DNA from: Marinifilum sp.
GTDB taxonomy: Bacteria; UBA9089; CG2-30-40-21
DNA: 41,043 bases
Reading direction: 5' to 3'
NCBI GenBank assembly: GCA_020717845.1
Contig: DYDG01000013.1
Coordinates: 1-41,043 of the forward strand
Shown one piece after another: positions 4,650-29,426 of this stretch. Each line of letters begins with the position of its first letter. The stretch's first letter is position 1. Position numbers and translations under genes: made by a program. The notes beneath the pieces are model-generated. The model made no database searches, had not been told where the DNA came from, and saw nothing but the letters and a program-made list of their open reading frames with translations.

Positions 4650-4819
4650 ATTCCTGTTTCCCTTGAAGTTACTCGCCAATTACTGATGATATTAATTGAC
4701 CAGACATCCATAATATCGCATGACTCTTAATCTTAGGAGTAGGATTAGCATTGTCCACCAGATGACAGACAGATTGGTAGGCAATGTCCACTCTACTCAA
4801 AACCTACAACTTTAATTGT

Positions 4820-4864
4820 GTGCCTCTCGCACCAACTTCTTATTCCGTAACAGCCTGTCGAGAT
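4820..4864 (+). repeat. Interspersed repeat, copy 1
   Basis: This stretch matches the reverse complement of 22389-22434 over about 45 nt with few mismatches, including the shared core CCGTAACAGCCTGTCGA; a partial third copy lies at 22499-22518. The rest of the intergenic region 4650-4915 shows only a weak repeated AATGTCCAC motif near 4755 and 4785, and no gene. Confidence 0.7.
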
Positions 4865-4915
4865 CGCTTTGCTTCCTCAACAACATAAAAATACTACATT
4901 GGATTGTTAATCCAT

Positions 4916-9325: not shown

Positions 9326-10465
9326 ATGAAGAAAAATTTTTTGTTTACCTCAGAATCAGTGACCGAAGGGCATCCAGATAAACTGGCTGATCAGATCTCA
9401 GATGCGGTGCTTGATGCTATTATGGAGAATGACCCTGATGGAAGGGTTGCCTGCGAGACTCTTATTGCTATGGGTCTGGTGTTTGTGGCTGGTGAGATAA
9501 CCACCAGTTGTTATGTTGATGTGCCAAAGGTTGTCCGAGCTGCTATCAAGGATGCTGGTTATACCAATCCTGCCTTTGGGCTTGATTATCAGGATTGCTC
9601 GGTAATTACCTCTATCAATGAACAGTCTCCAGATATTGCCCTTGGTGTGGATAAAGAGGGTGCTGGTGATCAGGGGATGATGTTTGGTTATGCTACGGAT
9701 GAAACCAAGGAATTAATGCCATTACCAATCATGCTGTCTCACAAATTGGCCAGACGCCTTTCTTATGTCAGAAGAGGGATGCTATTACCATGGGTAAGAC
9801 CTGATGGCAAATCTCAGGTAACTGTAGAGTATGTTGATGGCAAACCAGCAAGGATAGATACTGTGGTTATCTCTGCTCAGCATGATGAGGATGTAACCAT
9901 AGAAACCATTCGGGAAGGGGTTATCGAAGAGGTGATCAAGCATGTTATCCCGGCAGAACTGCTCAAGGATACAAAATATTTCATCAATCCTACAGGAAGG
10001 TTTATTATTGGCGGGCCACAGGCAGATACAGGGCTTACCGGAAGAAAGATTATTGTTGATACCTATGGCGGCTGGGCAAGACATGGTGGCGGATGTTTTT
10101 CAGGCAAGGACCCATCAAAGGTAGACCGTTCTGCTGCTTATATGGCCAGGTATGTGGCTAAAAATATTGTTGCTGCTGGGCTGGCAAAGGAATGTGAGAT
10201 ACAGTTTTCTTATGCTATCGGTGTTGCTGCCCCTGTCTCGGTTATGGTTGATACCCATGGCACAGGCAAGATGGCTGATGAAAAAATAGAAAAATTGGTT
10301 CGGGAACACTTTGACCTGACCCCAAGAGGGATTGTCAGGACATTGCAGCTTCAAAAGCCAATCTATAAGCAAACAGCAGCTTTTGGACACTTTGGCAGGG
10401 AAGAGGAAGGTTTTGCCTGGGAAAATACAGATAAGGTTGAGTTGTTGAGGGAATGCAAGAAGTAA
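9326..10465 (+). CDS. metK: S-adenosylmethionine synthetase
   Basis: Makes SAM from methionine and ATP in the cytosol. The 379-residue length is normal. Motifs: [21 protein letters not shown] at the N-terminus with the ATP-binding His of GHPDK, GAGDQG at 112-117, and the phosphate-binding loop [16 protein letters not shown] from 254 (Cys replaces the usual Ala). AAGGAGG lies 13 nt before the ATG and AAGGA directly before it. Preceded by a consensus promoter and followed 139 nt later by ahcY, so the two probably form a SAM-cycle unit serving the methyltransferases. Confidence 0.97.
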
Positions 10466-10480
10466 GGATCATCATATATA

Positions 10481-11861
<1,381 letters not shown>

Positions 11862-12862: not shown

Positions 12863-13594
12863 GTGGCACAAATTTGGAGTAGTTTAATGTTATTATATGC
12901 CTTGATTGTCTCCATATGTTACAGCCTGATAAATCTGGATGCCACCGCCATAGCTCAGACCATGGTTTCCAGACCAATAGTTATTTCTCTATTAATTGGA
13001 AGTGTTTTGGGGTTATTGAATGGGGATGCTGCTTCTGGGGCAGGGATAGGCATAACCATAGGGGTATTCCTGGAATTTTTCTGGATTAATATTTCTTCGC
13101 TTGGGTCATCGGTTCCAGCGAATGCATCCATTAGCTCAGCCGTAGCCACAGCCGTGATTTGTTATCTTTCTAAAGGAGCACAGATAGAGCCATATTGGAT
13201 AACCAGCGGGCTTGTTTACGGGGTATGCTGTGGATATGCTGGCGGAAGGACAGATACATTACTCAGAGCCTTGAATGCCAGGCTGGTCAATAGGGCAACG
13301 CCTTTTGTTGAAAAGGGCGAACTAAATGCCATTAATAGGCTTAATTTGCAGGCTATTGGTGTATCGCTGGCAATCAACACCTTGCTTTGTTTTGTGTTAA
13401 TCATTGTGGGGATTAGTCTCTTGCCTGTCCTCCTGAAGTGTTTTCCGCAAGAGGTATTAGCAGCACTTAAAAATTCCTTGTGGCTGTTTTTATTGGTCTG
13501 TATGGGTATTGCCTTAGAGGCGTTTATGACAAAGAAGAGTGTATTTTATTTTGGGGCTGTGTGGGTGATTATAAGTCTTATAGGTCTTATATGA
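12863..13594 (+). CDS. PTS EIIC component, mannose class (permease)
   Basis: A membrane permease subunit that forms the sugar path together with EIID. 243 residues from the GTG at 12863; hydrophobic throughout with about 6-7 helices and the family-type stretch RPIVISLLIGSVLGLLNGD. An ATG at 12887 has a better ribosome site (GGAG, 7-nt spacing) and would remove eight residues, so the start is uncertain. Sugar specificity cannot be read directly; the downstream phosphomannose isomerase makes mannose or glucose plausible. Confidence 0.92.
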   Translation: MAQIWSSLMLLYALIVSICYSLINLDATAIAQTMVSRPIVISLLIGSVLGLLNGDAASGAGIGITIGVFLEFFWINISSLGSSVPANASISSAVATAVICYLSKGAQIEPYWITSGLVYGVCCGYAGGRTDTLLRALNARLVNRATPFVEKGELNAINRLNLQAIGVSLAINTLLCFVLIIVGISLLPVLLKCFPQEVLAALKNSLWLFLLVCMGIALEAFMTKKSVFYFGAVWVIISLIGLI

Positions 13595-13615
13595 CCTATA
13601 ACATGAGGTAAATCC

Positions 13616-14386
13616 ATGCTTGGACAAATATTCTGGAGATCCTTATTCATTCAATGCGTCCTGAATTTTGACAAAATGCAGAATACAGGTTTTGCTACAG
13701 CTATGATGCCTGTTATAAAAAGGCTGTTTCCACAGGGAGAAGAACAGAAAAAGGCATTATTACGGCATTTTGAACATTTTAACACTCAACCCTATGTAGC
13801 AAGTATCATTATGGGAATGATTGCGGCTAAGGAAAAAGAATATGCCTCTTCAGGAGATACGAAAATACTTGATGATATATCCAGATTAAAGGAGCAAACA
13901 GCCAGAGCCTTTGCCGCCTTAGGTGATATGTTTTTTTGGGGGACATGGAGACCGTTTATCTCTCTGTTGGGAATAGTGATTGTTTATTCAGGGATTATTC
14001 TGAAAGAAACATGGTTGATGGGGGCAGGAGCAGCTGTTTTTTTAATCGTGTATAATCTAATCCCATTAATGGTTAGATGGTATGGGCTGCGATTGGGTTA
14101 TGAAAAGCAAGAAGGGGCGATTGAGATTATTCTTAAGGCTAAGCCTGTGATTCAAAAGACAATCTGGTGGATACAGTGTATCAGCTTGACAATACTTGCT
14201 TGTTTTGGGACATTTATATCATCTAAAACGATTGCAACCCTTGGTGGTCAGGGCAATCTGATCTCGTCTCTTTTATCTGGGGCAATAGTCCTTTGGGTAG
14301 CAGTAACACTCAGGCGTATTTCAATATCCAAGGTTGTGATATTGATTATCCTTATCTCTGCTGTTCAAGCATATGTTTTTAAGTAA
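13616..14386 (+). CDS. PTS EIID component, mannose class
   Basis: The EIID subunit found only in the mannose family. 256 residues. The N-terminal FWRSLFIQCVLNFDKMQNTGFATAMMP is the family signature, followed by GDTKILDDISRLKEQTARAFAALGDMFFWGTWRP. The C-terminal half has several membrane helices. It is shorter than E. coli ManZ (about 280) but within range. Starts 21 nt after EIIC. Confidence 0.95.
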   Translation: MLGQIFWRSLFIQCVLNFDKMQNTGFATAMMPVIKRLFPQGEEQKKALLRHFEHFNTQPYVASIIMGMIAAKEKEYASSGDTKILDDISRLKEQTARAFAALGDMFFWGTWRPFISLLGIVIVYSGIILKETWLMGAGAAVFLIVYNLIPLMVRWYGLRLGYEKQEGAIEIILKAKPVIQKTIWWIQCISLTILACFGTFISSKTIATLGGQGNLISSLLSGAIVLWVAVTLRRISISKVVILIILISAVQAYVFK

Positions 14387-20008: not shown

Positions 20009-21379
20009 ATGACTATAATAGTGCATGACCTAATTGATCGTGTTATCGAAAGAACAAAGCAAGAGATTATCTCTCATGAACAACACGAAAAGGCTCAAAA
20101 ACAAGAGAAAATAACTGAGCCAGAGCTTGAGCAAGCAGAAGAATCAAAGCAGCCAGAGATGGTTGTAGAGATTGAAGAGCAGGAAGAACAGGAAAAGCAT
20201 GAAGCGAAAGAAGAGCAAGAAAAAATTGAGACGATTGATCAGGATTATGAGATGCAGGGGATTGAGGAAGGGATGCTTGTTTCTGGGGTAGTAGTAAAGA
20301 TTGATAAGGAAGAGGTTTTGGTCTCTATCCCTGGGTGTAAGTCAGAAGGGGTAATCCCTTTGAACGAGTTATCCAACAAAGCCTTTTCTTTGCCAGAAGA
20401 GGTGGTAAGTATAGGACAAACTGTCAAGGTATATATCCTGGCTGTTGAAGGAAGTGAAGGGAATCCTATCCTTTCTAAGCGGCAGGCAGATATGGAAGAC
20501 GACTGGGCAAGGATAATAAAATCATACGAAACCGGTGAAATACTTTCTGGCAGAGTAATCAATAAAACCAGGGGTGGATTGATTGTTGATATTGGCATGG
20601 CTGGATTTGTCCCATTTTCTCAGATAGACATAAATCGGCCTGTTGATTTAAACAGCTATCTGGGAAAGACCTTAAGGGTAAGGATCATAGAGTTGAATAG
20701 AGAGGAGAATACTATTGTCCTCTCTCAAAGACAGGTTTTAGAGGAAGAGTATAATCAAAAGAAGAAGACATTTTTTGATTCCTTTGTTGAAGGCATGGTA
20801 TGTGATGGTGTTGTCTCTAAGATAGCAGGCTTTGGAGCCTTTATTGACCTTGGAGGAATAGACGGTCTGGTGCATCTGTCAGAAATATCATGGACAAGGA
20901 TTAAACATCCGAAAGATGTGCTAAAACAGGGTGACAGGGTTAAGGTTGTGATATTAAAGATTGATAAGGATAACCGCAAGCTATCCTTAAGCATGAAACA
21001 GGCAATACCTGACCCATGGCAGGCTGCTGCTGAAAAGTATAATATTGGTGATGTTGTCTCTGGAGATGTTGTGAATTTTTTAAAGAATATTGCCTTTGTC
21101 CGATTAGAGGATGGCATAGAAGGGATATTACCTATCAGTGAGATATCCATAAAAAGGATAGCTTCGCCGTCTGAGGCATTGTCTGATGGGCAAAGGATAA
21201 CAGCTAAGGTTATAGATATTAATTTTGCTCAGCGAAAAATAGTTTTGAGCATTAAACAAATAATGTATGCAGCAGAAGAGAATACAGTCAGTGATTTTCT
21301 AAAAAACCAGAAGAATTCCTGCGGCATGACACTCGGTGATATGTTTAAGGATAAGTTCGAGGGATTGATGGCAAAGTGA
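20009..21379 (+). CDS. S1 RNA-binding repeat protein (ribosomal protein S1-like)
   Basis: 456 residues from the ATG at 20009 (AAGGAG 7 nt upstream, inside the end of folD). A Glu/Gln/Lys-rich, probably coiled-coil N-terminus (about 20-80) precedes four S1 domains starting at about 90 (EGMLVSGVVVKIDKEEVLVSI), 170 (TGEILSGRVINKTRGGLIVDI), 258 (EGMVCDGVVSKIAGFGAFIDL) and 343 (IGDVVSGDVVNFLKN). The third is the most canonical (GLVHLSEISW). Four domains and this length fit the short S1 or Tex-like RNA-binding proteins of many bacteria; it likely helps translation initiation or mRNA handling. It may be the organism's rpsA, which I cannot confirm. Confidence 0.88.
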   Translation: MTIIVHDLIDRVIERTKQEIISHEQHEKAQKQEKITEPELEQAEESKQPEMVVEIEEQEEQEKHEAKEEQEKIETIDQDYEMQGIEEGMLVSGVVVKIDKEEVLVSIPGCKSEGVIPLNELSNKAFSLPEEVVSIGQTVKVYILAVEGSEGNPILSKRQADMEDDWARIIKSYETGEILSGRVINKTRGGLIVDIGMAGFVPFSQIDINRPVDLNSYLGKTLRVRIIELNREENTIVLSQRQVLEEEYNQKKKTFFDSFVEGMVCDGVVSKIAGFGAFIDLGGIDGLVHLSEISWTRIKHPKDVLKQGDRVKVVILKIDKDNRKLSLSMKQAIPDPWQAAAEKYNIGDVVSGDVVNFLKNIAFVRLEDGIEGILPISEISIKRIASPSEALSDGQRITAKVIDINFAQRKIVLSIKQIMYAAEENTVSDFLKNQKNSCGMTLGDMFKDKFEGLMAK

Positions 21380-21408
21380 AAACTATCCAACCTGTTGTTT
21401 GCAGATGT

Positions 21409-21439
21409 GATAGGATGCTGCCTGTGTGTGGTGCGGAAA
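21409..21439 (+). repeat. Interspersed repeat, second copy
   Basis: Matches 17664-17694 at about 28 of 31 positions (GATAGGATG, TGCC, GTGTGTGGTGCGG shared). Both copies lie in gaps between plus-strand genes. The remaining gap before crcB shows no fluoride-riboswitch motif. Confidence 0.7.
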
Positions 21440-21519
21440 TAGAAAAGTGGTGGAGATGCAGAGCACAGTGTGGGAATGATAGAGTGGTGTGAGACGTGTT
21501 TGGAAAGGAGTCTCAAAAG

Positions 21520-21903
21520 GTGAGCAAATTGTTTCTAATTGGCATTGGCGGTTTCATTGGTTCAGTCCTTCGGTATCTGGTTAGCGGCTATGTCCAGCAA
21601 ATAACGAAAAGCGTCGAGTTTCCCTATGGCACACTTATGGTCAATCTCATAGGTTGTGGTCTCATCGGTTTCCTTTCACAATTGGCAGATACACGCGGAG
21701 TTTTCACTGCTGAGTCACGCTCCTTTGTATTCATCGGACTTTTGGGCGGCTTTACCACTTTCTCAGCCTTTGGCAATGAAACTATGAACCTTCTCAGCGA
21801 TGGGGAAAACTTTTTCGCCCTCGCTAACATCGCTGCCCATATTGTGCTTGGCCTTGGCGCAGTCTGGATTGGCCGCACAGCAGCTTATCTGATTTGGAGG
21901 TAA
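21520..21903 (+). CDS. crcB: Fluoride channel CrcB/Fluc
   Basis: A small inner-membrane fluoride exporter that works as an antiparallel dimer. 127 residues from the GTG at 21520 (AAAGGAG 9 nt upstream). Motifs: GGFIGSVLRYL, YGTLMVNLIGC with the conserved Asn, and GLLGGFTTFSAFGNE, the family's pore-lining stretch; four helices. A DUF190 gene follows by 3 nt, a known pairing. Codon third positions look more GC-rich (for example CTCGCTAACATCGCTGCC) than in neighbours, which hints at transfer. Confidence 0.95.
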   Translation: MSKLFLIGIGGFIGSVLRYLVSGYVQQITKSVEFPYGTLMVNLIGCGLIGFLSQLADTRGVFTAESRSFVFIGLLGGFTTFSAFGNETMNLLSDGENFFALANIAAHIVLGLGAVWIGRTAAYLIWR

Positions 21904-21906
21904 AGC

Positions 21907-22254
21907 ATGGTACTTCCTGAAAACGGTTATTTACTTCGTATCTTCATCGGTGAAAGCGATAAGCACGCTGGCAAGCCACTGTATGAGTGGATAGTCATTC
22001 AAGCCCGCGAACAGGGTTTAGCAGGAGCGACAGTATTACGCGGCATGATGGGGTTTGGTGCAAACAGCCGCATTATTCACACCTTCAAAATTGAACGACT
22101 CTCAGAAGATTTACCTATCATTATTGAACTTGTAGATACCCTCGAGAAGCTGGAGAAGTTTCTTGCCTTCATAGATGACAAAATACACGCTGGGCTGGCA
22201 ACTCTTGAAAAGGCACAGGTTCGCTTTTATCGAAGCGGTAAATCGAGTCCATAG
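21907..22254 (+). CDS. DUF190 (PII-like) protein paired with CrcB
   Basis: 115 residues with the DUF190 layout: LLRIFIGESDKHAGKPLYEWIV, then GLAGATVLRGMMGFGANSRIIHT and PIIIELVDTLEKLEKFL. The family has a PII-like ferredoxin fold and is often next to crcB; a regulatory or sensing role in fluoride resistance is inferred from that pairing. Starts 3 nt after crcB in the same operon and shares its base composition. Confidence 0.92.
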   Translation: MVLPENGYLLRIFIGESDKHAGKPLYEWIVIQAREQGLAGATVLRGMMGFGANSRIIHTFKIERLSEDLPIIIELVDTLEKLEKFLAFIDDKIHAGLATLEKAQVRFYRSGKSSP

Positions 22255-22388
22255 GGTGACACAACGTATTAGGAATTTGCATGGAGTGGTGCGTTTTAGT
22301 TAGACATCACCAAATCTTGAGCAAAAGGCTTAAAATCTGAAAAATCACAACACTTCAGTTATTGTCGTTCCCTCGTCCTTGTCGTACG

Positions 22389-22434
22389 AGCTCGACAGGC
22401 TGTTATGGAATAAGAATTTGATGCGAGAAACACC
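22389..22434 (-). repeat. Interspersed repeat, copy 2 (inverted)
   Basis: Reverse complement of 4820-4864 with few mismatches. A partial plus-oriented copy of the core lies at 22499-22518, so the two form an inverted pair here. The whole gap 22255-22665 has no credible gene; it holds these repeats and the possible attC at 22537-22632. Confidence 0.7.
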
Positions 22435-22536
22435 CAATATGTGGGGTTAAGCTTGCTACCGTCTGATATATATGGTATGTCGATGCTGTTGATTTTGCAT
22501 TCCGTAACAGCCTGTCGATATAAGAATAAGGAAATC

Positions 22537-22632
22537 GGACAACAAGGTGTTGCACGGAATGGTGTCCATGCGACGTCGGTTGGCAATTCGGGAGTCACGG
22601 AGAGGCCGCTATCGATGAGCTAATCGTTAGTC
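22537..22632 (+). other. Possible degenerate attC site 1
   Basis: R''-like GGACAAC (22537-22543) and R'-like GTTAGTC (22626-22632) bracket 82 nt; AACAAGGTGTTGCACGG after R'' resembles classical attC left arms. Pairing of the inner arms is poor, so this is the weakest of the listed sites. Confidence 0.35.
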
Positions 22633-22665
22633 CAAACGAGAAAATTCTTGACTATGGAGGTTACC

Positions 22666-22863
22666 ATGACAACAGTTACAATTGCTTTGTCAGACGAACG
22701 GTCATCAAAGTTGAAAGAGCTGGCAACCAGTTTTGGCGTCTCATCAGAAGAATTGGTACGCGTGAGCATTGAGGAATTACTTGCACAGCCTGAAAAAGCG
22801 TTCAAACAAGCCACAGATTATGTGCTCAGAAAAAATGCTGACCTTTACAGGCGGTTGGTTTAA
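22666..22863 (+). CDS. Ribbon-helix-helix-type antitoxin (Doc partner)
   Basis: 65 residues from the ATG at 22666 (TGGAGG 5 nt upstream). The sequence TTVTIALSDERSSKLKELA, then VSSEELVRVSIEELLAQPE, fits a short ribbon-helix-helix DNA-binding antitoxin with a C-terminal tail (ATDYVLRKNADLYRRLV) that would neutralise the toxin. The stop overlaps the start of the Doc-like gene (TAATG), a classic antitoxin-toxin arrangement. The toxin is truncated, so the antitoxin may now act only as a DNA-binding protein. Confidence 0.8.
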   Translation: MTTVTIALSDERSSKLKELATSFGVSSEELVRVSIEELLAQPEKAFKQATDYVLRKNADLYRRLV

Positions 22864-23039
22864 TGCGTTATCTTACTCTCAATGAGGCATTTGAACTCCA
22901 TCACTACCTCATAGAACAGTATGGTGGTTCGAAAGGTATTCATGATTTAGGTGCATTGAAGTCAGCTTTAGCTCAGCCCCGGATGACATTTGGTGGAGAA
23001 GACCTTTATCCGACAATTGTTGAAAAAGCGAGGGTATAA
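22863..23039 (+). pseudogene. doc: Truncated Doc (death-on-curing, Fic-fold) toxin
   Basis: 58 codons: MRYLTLNEAFELHHYLIEQYGG, then IHDLGALKSALAQPRMTFGGEDLYPTIVEKA, all matching the N-terminal half of Doc proteins (about 125 residues). It stops at ARV before the Fic catalytic motif (HxFxxGNKR), which is absent. The module should therefore be inactive as a kinase toxin. The break lies about 20 nt before the possible attC at 23059. Confidence 0.85.
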
Positions 23040-23058
23040 TCAGGGTCAAACCTTGAAA

Positions 23059-23115
23059 GCTGAACAGTTCTTGAGCGGACGGCAAAACCTCCGCTGCTGA
23101 TTTTTAGTATTAGGC
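23059..23115 (+). other. Possible attC site 2 (degenerate)
   Basis: R''-like GCTGAAC (23059-23065), inner stem AGCGGA/TCCGCT (23074-23079, 23090-23095) and R'-like ATTAGGC (23109-23115; A replaces the G). The inner TTGAGCGGACGGC resembles classical attC arms. The homology between the starts of units 2 and 3 begins exactly at the crossover point 23110. Confidence 0.45.
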
Positions 23116-23182
23116 CTTTTGCGTAAGATATTACTTAGGCGTAAGAAAGCACTCAATCTTGAGAAAACAAGCAGGTATGAAG
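23110..23182 (+). repeat. Cassette 5' leader repeat, copy 1
   Basis: About 72 nt that match 24005-24075 at roughly three quarters of positions (shared TTAG, AATATTACT/GATATTACT, AGGCG, AAGAAAG). Both copies start at an attC crossover point, so two cassettes share a leader. Confidence 0.65.
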
Positions 23183-23255
23183 AAATTTAGTGGCATACCT
23201 TGAATATGGAAAACAAACTATCTGAATTCTATATTCAAGGTGCGACACTAAATTT
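23183..23255 (+). repeat. 27-nt inverted repeat before the PIN gene
   Basis: Arms 23183-23209 and 23229-23255 are complementary apart from about four positions, with a 19-nt loop. The hairpin ends 18 nt before the PIN ATG. It could be an operator or mRNA structure for the module; it is too small to be an insertion sequence. Confidence 0.7.
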
Positions 23256-23272
23256 AACATAAGGTATTGCCA

Positions 23273-23761
23273 ATGAAAAAGAAAGTATATATTGAAACAT
23301 CAATAGTGAGCTATTTGATGGGAAGATCATCTATAAATCTGATTGTTGCAGCGTGGCAGAACTTGACGATAGAATGGTGGGAAAAACGACGGAATGTGTT
23401 TGATCTTTATACCTCAGAGCTGGTGATTGAAGAAGCAACTCGTGGAGACATGGAAGCTGCTCAAAAAAGGCTGAAGGCTCTGGAGGGAATACCCTTACTA
23501 AAACTCACTGAGCCTGTGGTTAAATTATCCCAAAAGCTTATTGCTAACGGAGCGTTGCCATCAAAAGCTATAAACGATGCTGTTCATATTGCACTTGCAG
23601 CAGTTCACGGTATTGATTATCTATTAACATGGAACTGTAGACATATTGATAATGCGGAAATAAAGCCATTGGTTCGGGCAATAATAATTTCCGAGGAGTA
23701 TAAGTATCCTGAGATATGTACTCCACAAGAACTTCTTGGAGGTAAGACAGATGAAGAATGA
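23273..23761 (+). CDS. PIN-domain toxin (VapC-like)
   Basis: 162 residues from the ATG at 23273. A PIN-fold RNase is suggested by the N-terminal KVYIETSIVSYLMGR, which in this subfamily has Glu where many PIN proteins have Asp, by SELVIEEATRGD in the middle and by SKAINDAVHIALAAVHGIDYLLTWNCRHIDNA with the later acidic site. Length is that of the longer VapC-like group. Unlike the Doc, MazF and HepT genes of this array it is full length. The partner gene starts 11 nt before its stop. Confidence 0.88.
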   Translation: MKKKVYIETSIVSYLMGRSSINLIVAAWQNLTIEWWEKRRNVFDLYTSELVIEEATRGDMEAAQKRLKALEGIPLLKLTEPVVKLSQKLIANGALPSKAINDAVHIALAAVHGIDYLLTWNCRHIDNAEIKPLVRAIIISEEYKYPEICTPQELLGGKTDEE

Positions 23762-23996
23762 AATATTGGAAGAACTCTGGCAAGCAAAGGATGCAGTTGC
23801 TAAGGAATATGGATATGATATTGATAACCTTGTAAAGGGATTGAGAGAAAAAGAAAAATTTGAGAAAAATAGAGTAATCAATTTGAATACAAAGCATATA
23901 AGAGGAACAAAGGATATTTCAAAAAAAGAGGTAGATAAATTGTCTAACAAAATCGCTGAAGCTAATCAAAACCACAGAGCGGTTTTAGCAGCTTAG
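23751..23996 (+). CDS. Antitoxin-like partner of the PIN protein
   Basis: 81 residues from the ATG at 23751 (GGAGG 8 nt upstream, inside the PIN gene). The N-terminal MKNEILEELWQAKDAVAKEYGYDIDNLVKGLREKEK is typical of small proteins encoded just after PIN genes of this group. The last 55 nt of coding overlap the attC site 23942-24010, so the protein's C-terminus (KIAEANQNHRAVLAA) is partly shaped by recombination-site sequence. Confidence 0.8.
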   Translation: MKNEILEELWQAKDAVAKEYGYDIDNLVKGLREKEKFEKNRVINLNTKHIRGTKDISKKEVDKLSNKIAEANQNHRAVLAA

Positions 23997-24010
23997 ATCA
24001 ATTGTTAGCC
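23942..24010 (+). other. attC-like site 3
   Basis: R'' GTCTAAC (23942-23948, fits RYYYAAC) and R' GTTAGCC (24004-24010). Arms pair as CTAACAA with its complement, then an unpaired spacer, then AAGCT and AAAACC/GGTTTT, with a 7-nt ACAGAGC loop. The left arm TCTAACAAAATCGCTGAAGC closely resembles classical 59-base elements. It overlaps the end of the antitoxin gene. Confidence 0.75.
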
Positions 24011-24075
24011 TCTTGTGTAAAATATTACTCAGGCGGAAGAAAGTACTTGAGGCTGGAAAACAACTATGCATAAGG
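24005..24075 (+). repeat. Cassette 5' leader repeat, copy 2
   Basis: Second copy of 23110-23182, starting at the TT of R' GTTAGCC. The gap 24001-24350 otherwise holds the inverted repeat 24114-24252 and no gene. Confidence 0.65.
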
Positions 24076-24113
24076 TAGTAAATGGGCGTAAGAAAACAGT
24101 CAAACGTAAGAAA

Positions 24114-24252
24114 AGGTGACAGTTTATACAACATTCTGCTAATCAAGAGGATATAAATAAAATATGCACGTTTAGGTTTCTCTGCTCTATGTCTTGGGTA
24201 ATATTTAATCTACAACTGGCAGAAAGACAATAAGTTATATAAACTGTCACCT
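24114..24252 (+). repeat. Inverted repeat unit (possible MITE)
   Basis: AGGTGACAGTTTATACAAC (24114-24132) and its near-exact complement at 24234-24252 flank about 100 nt without an ORF. Terminal inverted repeats around a short non-coding core fit a miniature element; no target-site duplication is evident. Confidence 0.6.
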
Positions 24253-24350
24253 TTACCCAGTCCTTCGCTATCGCTCAGGACTTCTTTTATGCTGGAACCG
24301 TTATCGGAACTCGCTTGTATATAGAAAGTAAGAAATAGAGAGGTGAAATT

Positions 24351-24545
24351 ATGACTGCGAAAGAGTTGTTTTTTAACGAAATTAAGAAGATTCTTGAACC
24401 ATTGTTTGAGGAAGTGTTGGACTTTATACATTTTTTAGAGACAAAAACTTTGGGACAAAAAATGGAAACAGCAATTGCAAGTGAGTCATCTTTGAAGAAG
24501 GACTGGCTAAAACCAGAGGAGGATATAGCATGGCAAGATTTATAA
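24351..24545 (+). CDS. DUF2281-like antitoxin
   Basis: 64 residues: ILEPLFEEVLDFIHFLETKTL followed by a polar tail (WLKPEEDIAWQDL). This short helical layout matches DUF2281-type antitoxins encoded just before PemK/MazF-like toxins. GAGAGGTG precedes the ATG. Its end overlaps the toxin start by 16 nt. The toxin is truncated, so its original role is probably lost. Confidence 0.72.
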   Translation: MTAKELFFNEIKKILEPLFEEVLDFIHFLETKTLGQKMETAIASESSLKKDWLKPEEDIAWQDL

Positions 24546-24676
24546 AAGGTGGTGTTGTAGTCGTCCCTTTCCCTTTTTCTGATTTGACACAAACAAAAAG
24601 AAGACCTGCGTTAGTTATTGCGGAATTAGAAGGAGATGATATAATCTTATGTCAGATAACCAGTCAGTGGGTTTAG
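24530..24676 (+). pseudogene. Truncated PemK/MazF-like toxin
   Basis: 48 codons: FIKGGVVVVPFPFSDLTQTK, then RRPALVIAELEGDDIILCQITSQ, the N-terminal half of a PemK/MazF-like endoribonuclease (about 110 residues). The frame ends WV-stop immediately after ITSQ, where the protein normally continues. The 3' half is missing and the sequence runs into a DUF2283 gene. GAGGAGGATATAGC is the ribosome site within the antitoxin gene. Confidence 0.85.
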
Positions 24677-24861
24677 GTGCAAAACACTTATGGTTTGACT
24701 TTGATGAAAAAGCGGATGTTTTATATGTAAGTTTAGAGCGACCTCAAAAGGCAACTGATACAGATATATTAGAGGCTGGCACATTCTTGCGGCTTCGAGG
24801 CAAAAGAGTAGTTGGAATAACTATAACAAATGTGAGTAAGAAATTTAAACCAGAATTTTGA
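24649..24861 (+). CDS. DUF2283 domain protein
   Basis: 70 residues. LWFDFDEKADVLYVSLERP and KRVVGITITNVSKKF are the DUF2283 signature (DxExADxLYI, then VVGIxIxNxS). Function unknown; often near toxin-antitoxin genes. The N-terminal MSDNQSVGLGA is coded by the end of the truncated toxin in another frame, so the native start was probably lost or is the GTG at 24667-24668; the start is uncertain. The junction suggests a deletion that joined toxin and DUF2283 genes. Confidence 0.75.
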   Translation: MSDNQSVGLGAKHLWFDFDEKADVLYVSLERPQKATDTDILEAGTFLRLRGKRVVGITITNVSKKFKPEF

Positions 24862-24878
24862 ATTATAGACCCGTAACA

Positions 24879-24944
24879 GCAGATAATAGCGTGTTCACGA
24901 AATTGCTTTCAGCAACTTCGCAAATACGCAAAACCGTTATCTGC
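24879..24944 (+). other. attC-like site 4
   Basis: Outer arms GCAGATAA (24879-24886) and TTATCTGC (24937-24944) pair perfectly; R' GTTATCT is 24936-24942. After an unpaired spacer (longer on the right, CCGTTTTGC type) the inner arms GCGT..TT..CGAA.TTGC pair to a TTTCA loop (24907-24911). Unpaired central spacer and extrahelical bases are attC hallmarks. Confidence 0.75.
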
Positions 24945-24993
24945 AATAGAAACTGTTTTTTGAAAAATGGTAATAAATGGGAGAATTTTACAT

Positions 24994-27405
24994 ATGGAAA
25001 CTTTACCATATTCTATTTATGTATGTAAACGGCCATTAAGAATAGTATTTCTTGTTGATCCGAATAATTCTAATTTTCAACAACTTGATGCAATTTTTAG
25101 GTATAACCATAGTAAATGGGGAGGACGCTTTAATCCAATCATTTTTACCGATGGTAAGACTATTGAAGAGAAATGGTGGAATTTTCTGCGTGATGTTGAT
25201 CCAGATGTTATCAAATCCATAGTTCCTCTTCAAGATGAGCTATTAAAGAAGATTGATACTTTTCTCTCGCCTTATTCGGTTGAAGTTTCTCATAGAGTTG
25301 ATGAGAATAGCTCAGATTATTATATCCATATCTCGGGTGAAGGCTTATCCATTCTTCCCACGCCAGACAATATTGCTAAAGTATCTCGAGCCTTTATGGG
25401 TAACTCGAAGCTCGTTCTCTTTGAGTTAGGTCAAACAGAAGATAAAATAGTAAACCAATTTATACACCGCAACTTTGGAACATATACGCAGACTCTTTAT
25501 ATTGACAGAGCCTTAGACAAGAATGAAAAGAAGATTTTTTCTATAATTAACAGGGAAAGCTTAGCAGTGGCGTTGACGGAACTAAGTACTTTTGAACGAT
25601 TTACTTACCCAATTCAGATATGTTCTCTGCCAAATACTTTTAGGGAAGTTAAGTCTGATAGAATGGGAGATATCTTTACTGTAGTTATAGGAGATACTCC
25701 TGAAGATGTAGTCTATTCATGGAATAGAACTTTGTTAATTCCTCGGTGGAAGCGGGCAGATATTAACCAGGTATGGCTTCCTACAGAAATAGTAAACGAT
25801 ACACAAATAGAGACTGCTTTAAAAAGATGGTTGCAAAGGGCGGCTGATCCCAATGGTACAACCAATAAAGAAATACAGTTTGTCAGTTTTAGCCTGAAAG
25901 AAGCTGAATTAGAAAAAATTGCTAATAGACTTACAAAAGACATTTGGCTGCACAAGACTGTTCGTGTCTTCACTGAACCGCAAATACCTGATTTTCAACC
26001 AAGCGACTCTTATCTGCGATTGAAAGAAAATATGGACTTGTACAGAGCGACAGGAAATGAGGAACATATTGTTTTAAGTGAGCCTAATGTCTTGGAAGGA
26101 GTCATGGGTGGTGAGCATTGGATGGCGGATACCTATATTCAGTTTAGACCTGAACGCTACATGAACTTTGTAGGAAAAGATTTCTGGTGGCAGTTCCCTC
26201 GAAGAAATCATTTGGCTCGTGCCATGTTTCGCAAACCCTCACGGATTGGTTCAGATGGCTTTCCTTCTGTTTTGATGAAGCGGGGTGAACCAACCTTGAG
26301 TATTAAATTATTAGATGACGAATCCGTTTTCCAAGCTTTAATTATTGGGGAAAACACTCCTGCGTATACTACAGATCCAAGAAGTAAATTTGCGTATCGA
26401 CCGTTCGATGATGTACAACGGTCTGATAAGGGTCGATACCTATCTGGCTTTTTGGACATATTCTCAGGCTTGTCATTTGCGTACCAGATACTTAAGGAGC
26501 GATACTGGCGACGTATGTTTAATATTTTATCGCACCAGAATCCTTCGAAGGATGAGAAGAAACAAGAATCGATTCTTAATAAGCTCAAAAAGGAGATGCG
26601 ATCATATGGGGCAGATTTTCAGGGAAAGCCAGAAGGATTAGAGTGGTTGTCGAAATATGTTTTACAACTTTCAAAAAAGGAGGCAGCTACTGGAAAAGAG
26701 TCGCCATTCAAAGGTTTTATTGAGGAAGCCAAAAAGGAATTAGAAGAATTTAATTCATCGATACAAGAGGATCAAAAATTTGAGTTTAACGAACAAGATG
26801 TAAAGGATGCATTATTTGATCTTATTGAATCAAACATCCTTCTTATGGGAATCCGCCCGCATTGTCTTCTATGTGGTTGTGTGAACTGGTATCATGTCAA
26901 CGAAGCACAACAGACTCTTCAGTGTAAAGGATGCGGATATAAGTATCCAGTACGTCCACAGGAAGAATGGTATTACAAGTTAAATAGCCTTGTGCAAATT
27001 GGTTGTGCTCAACACGGCTTAGTTCCTGTCGTTCTTGTGTTAGGACAACTTTTGCACGAATGCAGGTCTTCATTCATTATGACCACAAGCTGGGAGATTT
27101 TCGAGACAGGAAAAGATAAGCCATTTAGCGATATAGATATTGTTTGTATCCAAGACGGTAAGTTTATTATCGGAGAGATTAAGCAATCGATTGCTCTCTT
27201 TAAGAAGTCAGATTTTGAGAAAATGGCTGAAATTGCTGAGCTACTTAAACCAGATATCTTGCTCTTTTCTTCGTTGGATCCAAAACCTAATAGATCCGTG
27301 AATGATAATCTTGAAATCCTTAAAAAAAGGCTGGCTCCACTTGAAATAGAGGTAAGTTGGTATCAGTTACACTCATACATATTCGAAGCCTCACCAGTTC
27401 GATGA
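24994..27405 (+). CDS. Unknown large protein with zinc ribbon and PD-(D/E)XK-type nuclease motif
   Basis: 803 residues from the ATG at 24994 (GGGAG 10 nt upstream); an ATG at 24967 lacks a ribosome site. I do not recognise the family. Residues about 15-60 (RIVFLVDP, then KWGGRFNPIIFTDG) look like a Rossmann-type beta-alpha start. The middle 60-600 has no motif I know. A Cys4-type zinc ribbon follows: C624LLCGC and C644KGC647. The C-terminus has FSDIDIVCIQDGKFIIGEIKQS, with Asp715 and E728-I-K730 spaced as in PD-(D/E)XK nucleases, then KPDILLFSS. No membrane segment. It fills a 2.6-kb cassette alone. A DNA-targeting defence nuclease is a reasonable guess, not shown. Confidence 0.8.
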   Translation: METLPYSIYVCKRPLRIVFLVDPNNSNFQQLDAIFRYNHSKWGGRFNPIIFTDGKTIEEKWWNFLRDVDPDVIKSIVPLQDELLKKIDTFLSPYSVEVSHRVDENSSDYYIHISGEGLSILPTPDNIAKVSRAFMGNSKLVLFELGQTEDKIVNQFIHRNFGTYTQTLYIDRALDKNEKKIFSIINRESLAVALTELSTFERFTYPIQICSLPNTFREVKSDRMGDIFTVVIGDTPEDVVYSWNRTLLIPRWKRADINQVWLPTEIVNDTQIETALKRWLQRAADPNGTTNKEIQFVSFSLKEAELEKIANRLTKDIWLHKTVRVFTEPQIPDFQPSDSYLRLKENMDLYRATGNEEHIVLSEPNVLEGVMGGEHWMADTYIQFRPERYMNFVGKDFWWQFPRRNHLARAMFRKPSRIGSDGFPSVLMKRGEPTLSIKLLDDESVFQALIIGENTPAYTTDPRSKFAYRPFDDVQRSDKGRYLSGFLDIFSGLSFAYQILKERYWRRMFNILSHQNPSKDEKKQESILNKLKKEMRSYGADFQGKPEGLEWLSKYVLQLSKKEAATGKESPFKGFIEEAKKELEEFNSSIQEDQKFEFNEQDVKDALFDLIESNILLMGIRPHCLLCGCVNWYHVNEAQQTLQCKGCGYKYPVRPQEEWYYKLNSLVQIGCAQHGLVPVVLVLGQLLHECRSSFIMTTSWEIFETGKDKPFSDIDIVCIQDGKFIIGEIKQSIALFKKSDFEKMAEIAELLKPDILLFSSLDPKPNRSVNDNLEILKKRLAPLEIEVSWYQLHSYIFEASPVR

Positions 27406-27456
27406 TGGATTCGGAAGTAAAGAAGAAAGAATGTTAAACATTAAGTACGGCACAGC

Positions 27457-27538
27457 ATATAACATGATGTAAAAGATTTTGTTTCACTTCATCCAAATTT
27501 TGCTCCGCAAAACTTCTTTTACATCAGGTATGTTAGCC
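27457..27538 (+). other. attC-like site 5
   Basis: R'' ATATAAC (27457-27463) and R' GTTAGCC (27532-27538). TAACA pairs outside; after a spacer TGATGTAAAAG pairs with CTTTTACATCA (11 bp), then an extrahelical base and ATTTTG/CAAAA. The loop region is 27482-27507. The best-formed hairpin of the series. Confidence 0.75.
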
Positions 27539-27600
27539 TACATTTTGCTTAGTAATTTTAGAAAATAATGAAACAACTTGAGAAAAATGGAGTAAGAAGA

Positions 27601-27930
27601 ATGCTTTCTCATGGTAAATTTGATAAAGAAATTAAATATATTGTAGAGTAGCTTATTGGGATATATAACCCCCAGAAAATCATTTTGTTTGGTTCTCTCT
27701 CCCATGGAAGAATAAGAGAAGGAACAGATATTGATCTTTTTGTTGTGAAAGAAGATGTCCCTAATCTTGGTGTTGATAGAATACGCCAATTGGAGAGATT
27801 AATCAAATATAGATTAGCTACTGACTTCATTGTATACAGACCTAAAGAAGTAGAGCAGAGATTAAAATTAGGCGATCCTTTTGTAGTGGCTGTAGTTAAG
27901 GAAGGGAAGGTTCTTTATGATGCAAGTTGA
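27601..27930 (+). pseudogene. MntA-like nucleotidyltransferase with internal amber codon
   Basis: A minimal nucleotidyltransferase of the MNT/HEPN antitoxin type: KIILFGSLSHGRIREGTDIDLFVV carries the GSxxxG and DxD motifs. The frame starts at 27601 with GGAG 8 nt upstream, reads 16 codons, hits TAG at 27649-27651, and continues to 27930 without further breaks. Without the stop the protein would be 109 residues, a normal size. Restart at TTG 27685 would lose the first helix. The partner HepT gene overlaps the end and is itself truncated. Confidence 0.82.
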
Positions 27931-28000
27931 GATTATCAAAGAATGGATGGAAAAGGCAGAAGAAATAAGAAAGTGGATAAGAGACTTTTTAAAGTTTTGA
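27917..28000 (+). pseudogene. HepT-like HEPN toxin remnant
   Basis: 27 codons (MMQVEIIKEWMEKAEE and on to WIRDFLKF) that match the first helix of HEPN proteins, which normally run to about 130 residues and carry an RxxxxH motif; that motif is absent. It overlaps the nucleotidyltransferase stop by 14 nt, as in intact MntA-HepT operons. The break lies 25 nt before attC site 6. Confidence 0.65.
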
Positions 28001-28024
28001 AAGAAATCGCCAAGTAAAACGATC

Positions 28025-28113
28025 GACTAACACGGTGTTTGCGGTTCGTCCTGACGGGCTCACCCAAATGCCTCGCTATGCTTGGCACTTTGTAAACATC
28101 GAAAACGTTATCT
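28025..28113 (+). other. attC-like site 6
   Basis: R'' GACTAAC (28025-28031) and R' GTTATCT (28107-28113). TAAC pairs, then an unpaired spacer (longer on the right), then GGTGTTTGC pairs with GTAAACATC. A long variable terminal region (about 28045-28090) with CCTCGCTATGC is typical of larger attC sites. Confidence 0.7.
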
Positions 28114-28151
28114 GCTCATTGCAGACAAAAGATTTGGAACAGGAGACACGA

Positions 28152-28589
28152 ATGAGCTTAATTTATCTTGATTATAACTGTTTTCAGCGGGGCTTTGATG
28201 ACCATCGTCAGATTAGAATTCAAATGGAAGCCTTAGCCTGTCAGGAAATATTTAATAGATCAGAAAGAAAAGAGCTACAGTTGATTTGGTCTTTTATGCA
28301 TGAAGACGAAACCATTATTTGTCCATTTATAGAACGGAAAATTGAGGTTTTTCGTTTGTCGAATCTTTGTGAAATAAAGGTAGGACCAAAAGAAGAAATT
28401 TATAATTGTGCTAAGTCATTTCAGATAGAATCAAATCTTTCTGCTAAAGATGCTGTTCATTTAGCATGTGCTTCTTATATCAAAGCGGAATTTTTTCTTA
28501 CTTGTGATGATGGTGTAATAAAATACGCCAAGCGATTAAATCTTAATATAGGAGTTATGAATCCAATAGATTATATTCGAGGAGGATAA
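28152..28589 (+). CDS. PIN-domain protein (VapC-like toxin)
   Basis: 145 residues from the ATG at 28152 (AGGAG 6 nt upstream); the frame is open further upstream through attC site 6, which is not coding. A PIN fold is suggested by LIYLDYNCFQRGF at the N-terminus (first acidic residue Asp7), a central Glu, AKDAVHLACASYIKAEFFLTCDDGVIKYAK (later acidic residues) and the final MNPIDYI typical of the family. Full length. Followed after 6 nt by a small partner gene. Confidence 0.82.
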   Translation: MSLIYLDYNCFQRGFDDHRQIRIQMEALACQEIFNRSERKELQLIWSFMHEDETIICPFIERKIEVFRLSNLCEIKVGPKEEIYNCAKSFQIESNLSAKDAVHLACASYIKAEFFLTCDDGVIKYAKRLNLNIGVMNPIDYIRGG

Positions 28590-28595
28590 AATGAA

Positions 28596-28802
28596 ATGAA
28601 AATGGAACTGATGGATGATACGGAAATCAGGATTAAAGGTATAGAGGTTTTGAATCAAACCCTTGGTTATAGTAGTGCGTTACGGTTTCTCTCCTTGTTT
28701 TATCGAGAACCAACTGATTATGTTCAAATTTCCAGACGACTCTATAAAGGACAAACCGTTGAAGAAATATTTGATCGGGCTAAAAAACACTGGAAAGAAT
28801 AA
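28596..28802 (+). CDS. Small partner of the PIN protein, putative antitoxin
   Basis: 68 residues: KMELMDDTEIRIKGIEVLNQTLGYSSALRFLSLFYREPTDY and on to GQTVEEIFDRAKKHWKE. GGAGGA stands about 10 nt upstream; an earlier ATG at 28591 reads only two codons. It follows a PIN gene in toxin-first order. The fold is probably all-helical. No confirmed family; the antitoxin role comes from position. Confidence 0.7.
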   Translation: MKMELMDDTEIRIKGIEVLNQTLGYSSALRFLSLFYREPTDYVQISRRLYKGQTVEEIFDRAKKHWKE

Positions 28803-28819
28803 ACAGAATGTTTGCGACG

Positions 28820-28860
28820 GCAGATAACAGAGTATTTGTGAAATTGCTTGAAGGCAATCT
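28820..28860 (+). other. Truncated attC (right end of the array)
   Basis: GCAGATAAC (28820-28828, containing R'' AGATAAC) and the following GAAATTGC match the left half of site 4. Only the innermost stem ATTGC/GCAAT remains on the right; R' is absent and the sequence passes directly into the flavin reductase-like gene. Confidence 0.6.
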
Positions 28861-28880
28861 ATTATTACATGGAGCAAAAA

Positions 28881-29426
28881 ATGAAGTTAGAATTAAAGAA
28901 TTGGTACAAGATTCTCTGCCCAAGACCAGTAGTTTTGATCTCAACTATAGATACTCAAGGCATCTCAAACGCTGCCCCTTATTCCTTTGTCATGCCCATA
29001 TCATGCCAGCCGGCTATGGTTGGTTTTGCCTCAGGCTTGAAACGGCATACCTTGACAAATATAAGAGAGACAAAGGAGTTTATCCTGAATATCCCATCTG
29101 AAGAGATAATTGATCAGATGTGGCAGTGTGCTAAGCCGTATCCTCAAGGGGTATCAGAGATTAGAGAGACAGGATTAAGCGAGGAAAAAGCAGAAAAGGT
29201 TTCTGTGCCAAGGATTGGTGAATGTATTGGCTGGATTGAATGCAGCCTTGAGTTTGAAAGAGAGATAGGGGATCATGTTCTGATAGTTGGACAGGTCCTG
29301 TATTCACAGGTAAGGGATGAGTGGTGGAAAGACGATAAGTATCAGGCTATTCAGGCAAAACCCTTGCTTCATATCGGCGGCTGTGAGTTTAGTATCCCTG
29401 GCTGGGCAACAGAACCAGTGGAATAG
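28881..29426 (+). CDS. Flavin reductase-like FMN-binding split-barrel protein
   Basis: 181 residues from the ATG at 28881 (GGAG 6 nt upstream). The fold is indicated by CPRPVVLISTIDTQGISNAAPYSFVMPISCQPAMVGF, then KRHTLTNIRETKEFILNIPSEE, the FMN-binding pattern of the flavin reductase/DIM6-NTAB family. These proteins use FMN and NAD(P)H for reductase or oxygenase partner roles; the substrate is unknown. It lies directly at the right edge of the cassette array, 53 nt before rfbD. Confidence 0.88.
   Translation: MKLELKNWYKILCPRPVVLISTIDTQGISNAAPYSFVMPISCQPAMVGFASGLKRHTLTNIRETKEFILNIPSEEIIDQMWQCAKPYPQGVSEIRETGLSEEKAEKVSVPRIGECIGWIECSLEFEREIGDHVLIVGQVLYSQVRDEWWKDDKYQAIQAKPLLHIGGCEFSIPGWATEPVE

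Follow-up and report, generated by a model that had tools for sequence, protein, structure and literature searches.

Cassette exchange has so far been attributed to IntI, the integrase of integrons. An insertion specific to IntI has been described as essential for integron function (PMC8138268). In Archaea, arrays mostly lack an integrase, attI is situated immediately downstream of the integrase gene, and three of six integrases were set aside because they were short or covered the domain only in part (PMC9668308). Here we analyse a stretch of 41,043 nt from Marinifilum sp. (the window), which is an entire contig (G000:C13) of a draft genome of 2.55 Mb in 181 contigs, and whose island at 21386–28866 is an inserted, partly decayed row of cassettes without a recombinase of its own. 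Besides canonical attC, the island contains a second family of hairpin sites. It is probably a hybrid, decaying island, similar to a cassette array without an integrase (CALIN) and derived from two cassette systems, the second being an integron-like platform of a tyrosine recombinase that we call HInt. We also consider it fairly likely that anaerobic and subsurface Bacteria and Archaea possess a second, IntI-independent integron-like system, with a HARP-domain tyrosine recombinase, a downstream attI and branched hairpin sites common to both domains, to which some arrays filed as CALINs, part of the window included, would belong.

An inserted island with two kinds of hairpin site

An S1-domain gene, which ends at 21379, precedes the island, and a flavin reductase gene, which starts near 28881, follows it. 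This locus is empty in two genomes of the same genus: by BLASTN, window positions 21385 and 28881 map 13 bp apart in G001, and the flanks are 130 bp apart in G003. A further genome, G002, was uninformative: its match was confined to the flavin reductase side and to a short contig. The source genome belongs to a small group, the analysis covering 19 genomes of its phylum. Relatives thus do not carry these genes and hairpins as fixed single-locus DNA. The first-pass annotation, made from the letters of the window, had read 22537–28860 as a CALIN with toxin-antitoxin cassettes in a genome that has or had an integron. The cassette array with toxin-antitoxin genes was confirmed, as was the lack of an integrase on the contig; the integrase matches of the genome sit on other contigs. 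The predicted integron is supported too: a full-length IntI is present at a contig end on G000:C4 (369 bits to TIGR02249, cut-off 265), and positions 13923–15660 of C173 (L015) contain a decayed IntI C-terminus, a canonical attC (33.5 bits) and a single cassette of the AbiJ family. The latter region is a second remnant integron of this genome and likely holds attI. A TIGR02249 match on C181 was rejected as IntI and read as an integrase fragment associated with an element that we take to be of IS91 type.

Since a simple scan for R and L boxes did not separate sites from background, we used an attC arm model, whose training set combined class 1 arrays from plasmids with real IntI-adjacent cassette arrays of order relatives, and two covariance models: R1, built from six hairpins of order relatives only, with no window sequence, and R2, built from a named cross-phylum site collection only. 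The four main hairpins of the first-pass annotation were recovered in place and above chance, although as two types: the one at 23942–24010 is a canonical attC, whereas the other three belong to a different hairpin family. R1 and R2 each match exactly three plus-strand sites in the window (24879–24944, 27455–27540 and 28023–28115), none of which the arm model reports. These three do not show the extrahelical base on the R″–L″ arm and the canonical spacers of attC, and in the alignment the strands of their L stem pair with no additional base. DNA folding gave z-scores of −3.0, −4.7 and −5.5 for the sites starting at 23942, 24879 and 27455, and the hairpin at 28025 folds poorly by itself (−0.3). 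An Rfam scan of the window gave no matches. As for the minor sites proposed earlier, the half site at 28820–28860 is a second-family site of which the cut at the island edge leaves the left half; 22537–22632 survives only as a weak candidate (19.2 bits), and 23059–23115 was dropped, being supported by none of the models. CALINs are recognised by at least two neighbouring attC, and the window has one clear canonical attC and this weak one.

By BLAST, the second-family hairpins of the window resemble hairpins scattered over the genomes of order relatives. R1 detected about 60 sites across the order, in same-strand arrays, plus one further site in the source genome, where a lone second-family site is situated at G000:C153:12735–12809 (minus strand, 41.8 bits). 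In relatives the sites accompany other genes. The L stem covaries: in 123 sites there were two-sided changes at 10 of 10 pairs, with 93.5% of cells paired and a covariation score of 0.383 versus 0.131 in shuffles (0/500 as high). In the same sites the variable R-stem positions are unpaired in about a third to half of cases. This is explained if the unit that ends in a site supplies R″ and the following one supplies most of R′, which would make pairing within a site poor and let the unit ends match each other. In 27 units starting with GTT, the five variable bases match R″ at their own unit end at 4.19 of 5 positions, versus 2.66 expected (0/20,000), while R″/R′ pairing within the site stays at the random level (2.67). 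A second set of 36 units, taken from named genomes by exact pattern and overlapping the first in the G005 and G006 records, gave 3.61 versus 2.64 expected (0/20,000) and a within-site pairing of 2.73. Covarying L stems with shuffled R″/R′ are predicted for shuffled cassettes and not for a simple palindrome. Unit starts complementary to the unit-end R″, with chimeric sites, are the mark of gene cassettes, and these comparisons indicate that second-family units did move as cassettes, as the first-pass annotation had supposed, with the cut between G and TTA (G/TTA). Its claim that unit starts match the box at the unit end stands in the window for three units (7/8 from 24944 to 27455, 6/8 from 27540 to 28023 and 8/8 from 28115 to the half site, by eye) and fails for the unit from 24010 to 24879.

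An exact-pattern scan found at least 120 stretches with second-family sites; among the matches listed were Dehalococcoidia, KSB1, WOR-3, Atribacteria, Caldiserica, Nitrospirae, Omnitrophota, Patescibacteria, Methanophagales, Methanosarcinales, Altarchaeum, Aenigmarchaeota and others. Single cases, which are draft genomes mostly labelled as metagenome-assembled, could be binning errors, an unlikely general explanation for the spread over Bacteria and Archaea because of its breadth. Viral contigs, scanned separately with the site pattern, yielded no match. At six loci of order relatives (L074, L081, L112, L113, L117 and L118) what follows the site begins with the same non-GTT sequence, CGATAACCAAAATGTCGCTTCGC; it looks as though a shared element has settled downstream of many sites.

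The recombinase HInt and its attI-like site

A particular integrase, HInt, recurs upstream of second-family arrays in named loci. We searched 242 genomes for it and applied R2 to as much as 20 kb of sequence surrounding each of 20 matches. Second-family sites adjoin five of the six informative loci of the strict HInt clade, downstream and in the same orientation, versus none of 13 other recombinase loci (Fisher 0.0005). Co-occurrence of HInt and sites at the genome level is weaker (5/8 versus 30/234, p 0.002) and confounded by kinship. The canonical model gave a single match at HInt loci, itself a second-family site, whereas the IntI loci of the phylum carry 41 canonical attC but not one second-family site. 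Two named genomes, of Ratteibacteria (L258) and Caldisericum (L270), each carry an intact HInt gene with an array. Searches of plasmids and phages for HInt returned distant recombinases only, and no description of a recombinase of this type with cassettes was found in the open-access literature.

Directly 3′ of the HInt stop codon, 12 of the 13 loci read contain the arms of an inverted repeat and, after them, GTTA or GTTG, the exception being L177, without a clear layout of this kind. The arm sequence differs by lineage and the layout is conserved. The first cassette starts at this GTTA or GTTG; as in an integron platform, an attI-like site adjoins the integrase gene and the cassettes begin at it. 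The first cassette follows the unit rule completely (9/9) in L258, L270, L319, L324, L198 and L172, nearly so (8/9) in L176 and L320, and more weakly in L323, L331 and L168. When the unit ends of L258 are joined as a circle, they form a long hairpin (z −7.95).

HInt has 350–400 aa, with an N-terminal HARP-like domain, a SAM-like domain and a Phage_integrase domain. All HInts show two gaps (31 and 10 columns) at the IntI-specific insertion when compared with IntI1 and the IntIs of this lineage. A tree grouped the IntIs with 100/100 and left HInt outside, and the TIGR02249 score of HInt (226) is under the cut-off of 265. Lacking an insertion described as essential, HInt may engage the folded site differently. 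HARP domains have a known role in SMARCAL1 and, by analogy, the HARP-like part of HInt may act on single-stranded DNA or forks. Two further loci, L328 and L332, encode different tyrosine recombinases whose N-terminus is likewise HARP-like, and second-family sites are absent nearby.

The second-family arrays resemble integrons and CALINs in having uniformly oriented one- or two-gene cassettes, R/L-box hairpins, an implied crossover between G and TT of R′, attI beside the integrase gene and a content of toxin-antitoxin and defence-type genes. They differ in an L stem without extrahelical base, a one-sided bulge of about 1 nt instead of 5 nt, a branched top and, in some cases, unit ends that are complementary well past the R box. 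HInt differs from IntI in lacking the specific insertion and in its transcription, which runs toward the array. An order relative carries, at 9613–10995 of G004:C39 (L043), a long IntI (about 460 aa, with an N-terminal extension) in the usual divergent layout, with a canonical array from 11825. As in archaeal integrons, second-family arrays are found in Archaea and attI is directly 3′ of the integrase gene, although the integrases analysed there have the IntI-specific domain (PMC9668308) that HInt lacks; HInt may be among the partial archaeal IntIs that this study excluded. Similarity to Xer-type recombinases is also evident, since HInt scores above the NCBIfam XerA_Arch cut-off (234 and 261 versus 220) and the solved structures nearest to its model include XerA and IntI4. 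Unlike Xer-type recombinases, HInt has the extra HARP-like domain and is found at an attI-like site with cassettes instead of a lone dif site.

Origin of the island and competing explanations

If the island is a hybrid, its canonical-attC cassettes would originate in an IntI integron of this lineage, and its second-family cassettes in a platform consisting of HInt, an attI-like site just 3′ and cassettes in the same orientation. A cassette would leave as a circle by recombination at G/TTA of a folded single-stranded hairpin, with an R stem that may reach some 20 bp once the cassette is circular, a bulge on one side, an L stem of 11 bp and a branched top, and would re-enter at the attI-like site or at another hairpin. 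HInt would probably be the catalyst at second-family sites, by a single-strand route. A search at E 1e-40 did not find an HInt gene in the source genome, so that its source there, like the placing of the window's second-family cassettes by HInt, is inferred. At present the array is without a nearby engine, and its cassettes may either move in trans or be immobile; several island genes are broken, which fits an old array.

Besides this failure to find HInt in the source genome, several points weigh against a second system. The boundary of the HInt clade was drawn after inspection of the data, and the loci from the pattern scan were selected for the presence of sites. Three of the 13 contrast loci end near the gene; leaving them out gives 0/10 and a value of about 0.001 (by hand). 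Several HInt genes are fragments or contain stops, and the HInt locus of G179 has attI with no site within about 9.6 kb. The HARP matches (0.001–0.003) are below the Pfam cut-off, the AlphaFold model of one HInt is of moderate confidence and Foldseek gave recombinases only, so that the HARP reading rests on weak Pfam matches. NCBIfam itself labels HInt as 'site-specific tyrosine recombinase/integron integrase'.

In a competing explanation all sites are ordinary IntI attC, the second family being a divergent attC lineage served by IntI in trans and HInt merely adjacent. The source genome has a full IntI, both site types occur within one island, and the R boxes and the G/TTA start agree with attC, which IntI recognises via structural features (PMC2727003); archaeal integrons, moreover, have been reported mostly as CALINs (PMC9668308). 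We nevertheless judge it rather unlikely, given the partition of site types between IntI and HInt loci and the 12 HInt loci with an attI-like site right after the gene, whose first cassettes mostly obey the unit rule. It is very improbable that the hairpins are terminators or a mobile palindrome, such as a miniature inverted-repeat transposable element (MITE) or a repetitive extragenic palindrome: they are strong, repeated palindromes between same-strand genes and a true MITE-like element adjoins, yet the ends of such an element should pair, whereas pairing within sites is random while unit ends match, and the arrays are in phase and have attI junctions. Fixed chromosomal DNA with chance hairpins, compatible with partly decayed genes of which none is shown moving now, is refuted by the R1 matches, the locus empty in two same-genus genomes and the recurrence of the sites with other genes in relatives, leaving it a negligible probability.

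Content of the island and meaning of a possible second system

The features of the island are listed in Table 1. The genes crcB and DUF190 (21496–22254), which are part of it, may represent an early cassette or an independent insertion. The MITE-like element is about 130 bp long, with ends cgacaggctgtta..., and has copies at 77–204 and 13519–13645 of G000:C181 (L014), one of them at the end of the integrase fragment of that contig; related pieces occur at window positions 4815–4866. The 812-aa protein (24967–27405) contains a CxxC pair and, by eye, a possible nuclease-like C-terminus.

Table 1. Features of the island in the window (ORF, open reading frame)
Feature	Position	Strand	Evidence
Inserted island (about 7.5 kb)	21386–28866		BLASTN against G001 and G003 flanks
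crcB, fluoride channel family	21496–21903	+	Pfam CRCB 1.4e-26; missing at G001 and G003 locus
DUF190 protein gene	21907–22254	+	Pfam DUF190 2.6e-35; no full match in G001–G007
Inverted-repeat (MITE-like) element	22388–22515		80–85% copies on G000:C181
Weak candidate attC	22537–22632	+	Arm model 19.2 bits; about 0.08 expected per shuffled window
Ribbon-helix-helix antitoxin-like gene	22666–22863	+	Pfam RHH_1 0.0024, below cut-off
Fic/Doc toxin gene, truncated	22863–23039	+	Pfam Fic 4.3e-5, profile 1–64 of 93, ORF ends
PIN-domain toxin-like gene	23273–23761	+	Pfam PIN 6.3e-8
Short ORF, possible PIN-gene partner, extends into attC	23751–23996	+	ORF; no Pfam match
Canonical attC	23942–24010	+	Arm model 39.2 bits (best of 60 shuffled windows 27.0); DNA fold z −2.98
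DUF2281 (antitoxin-like) gene	24351–24545	+	Pfam 6.6e-4, below cut-off
MazF/PemK-like toxin gene, truncated	24530–24676	+	Pfam PemK 0.0011, profile 2–46 of 109
DUF2283 gene	24649–24861	+	Pfam 6.5e-7
Second-family site	24879–24944	+	R1 40.9 bits (E 2e-6), R2 35.5; 81–84% copies in G007:C62
812-aa ORF	24967–27405	+	ORF; no Pfam family
Second-family site	27455–27540	+	R1 56.2 bits (E 1e-9), R2 62.2; 89% over 85 bp to G005:C441
Minimal nucleotidyltransferase-like gene, in-frame TAG at 27649	27604–27930	+	Pfam Polbeta 3e-6, NTP_transf_2 2.8e-5 on 27685–27927
Second-family site	28023–28115	+	R1 48.8 bits (E 4e-8), R2 56.3
PIN-domain-like gene	28152–28589	+	Pfam PIN 0.0022, below cut-off
Short ORF 3′ of PIN-like gene, antitoxin candidate	28596–28802	+	ORF; no Pfam match
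Left half of second-family site, cut at island edge	28818–28866	+	Sequence common with 24879–24944; ends where relatives' homology resumes

If a second system is confirmed, a different recombinase lineage would have evolved or kept the logic of integrons, using one site family across many phyla and both domains, and part of the integrase-less CALINs would be explained. It would offer a testable route for gene transfer between domains, allow the handling of folded single-stranded sites by two recombinases to be compared directly, and link an accessory domain of the single-stranded DNA or fork type to hairpin recombination, an idea open to testing. The window would then be one trace of a parallel, largely unrecognised integron-like system of gene exchange.

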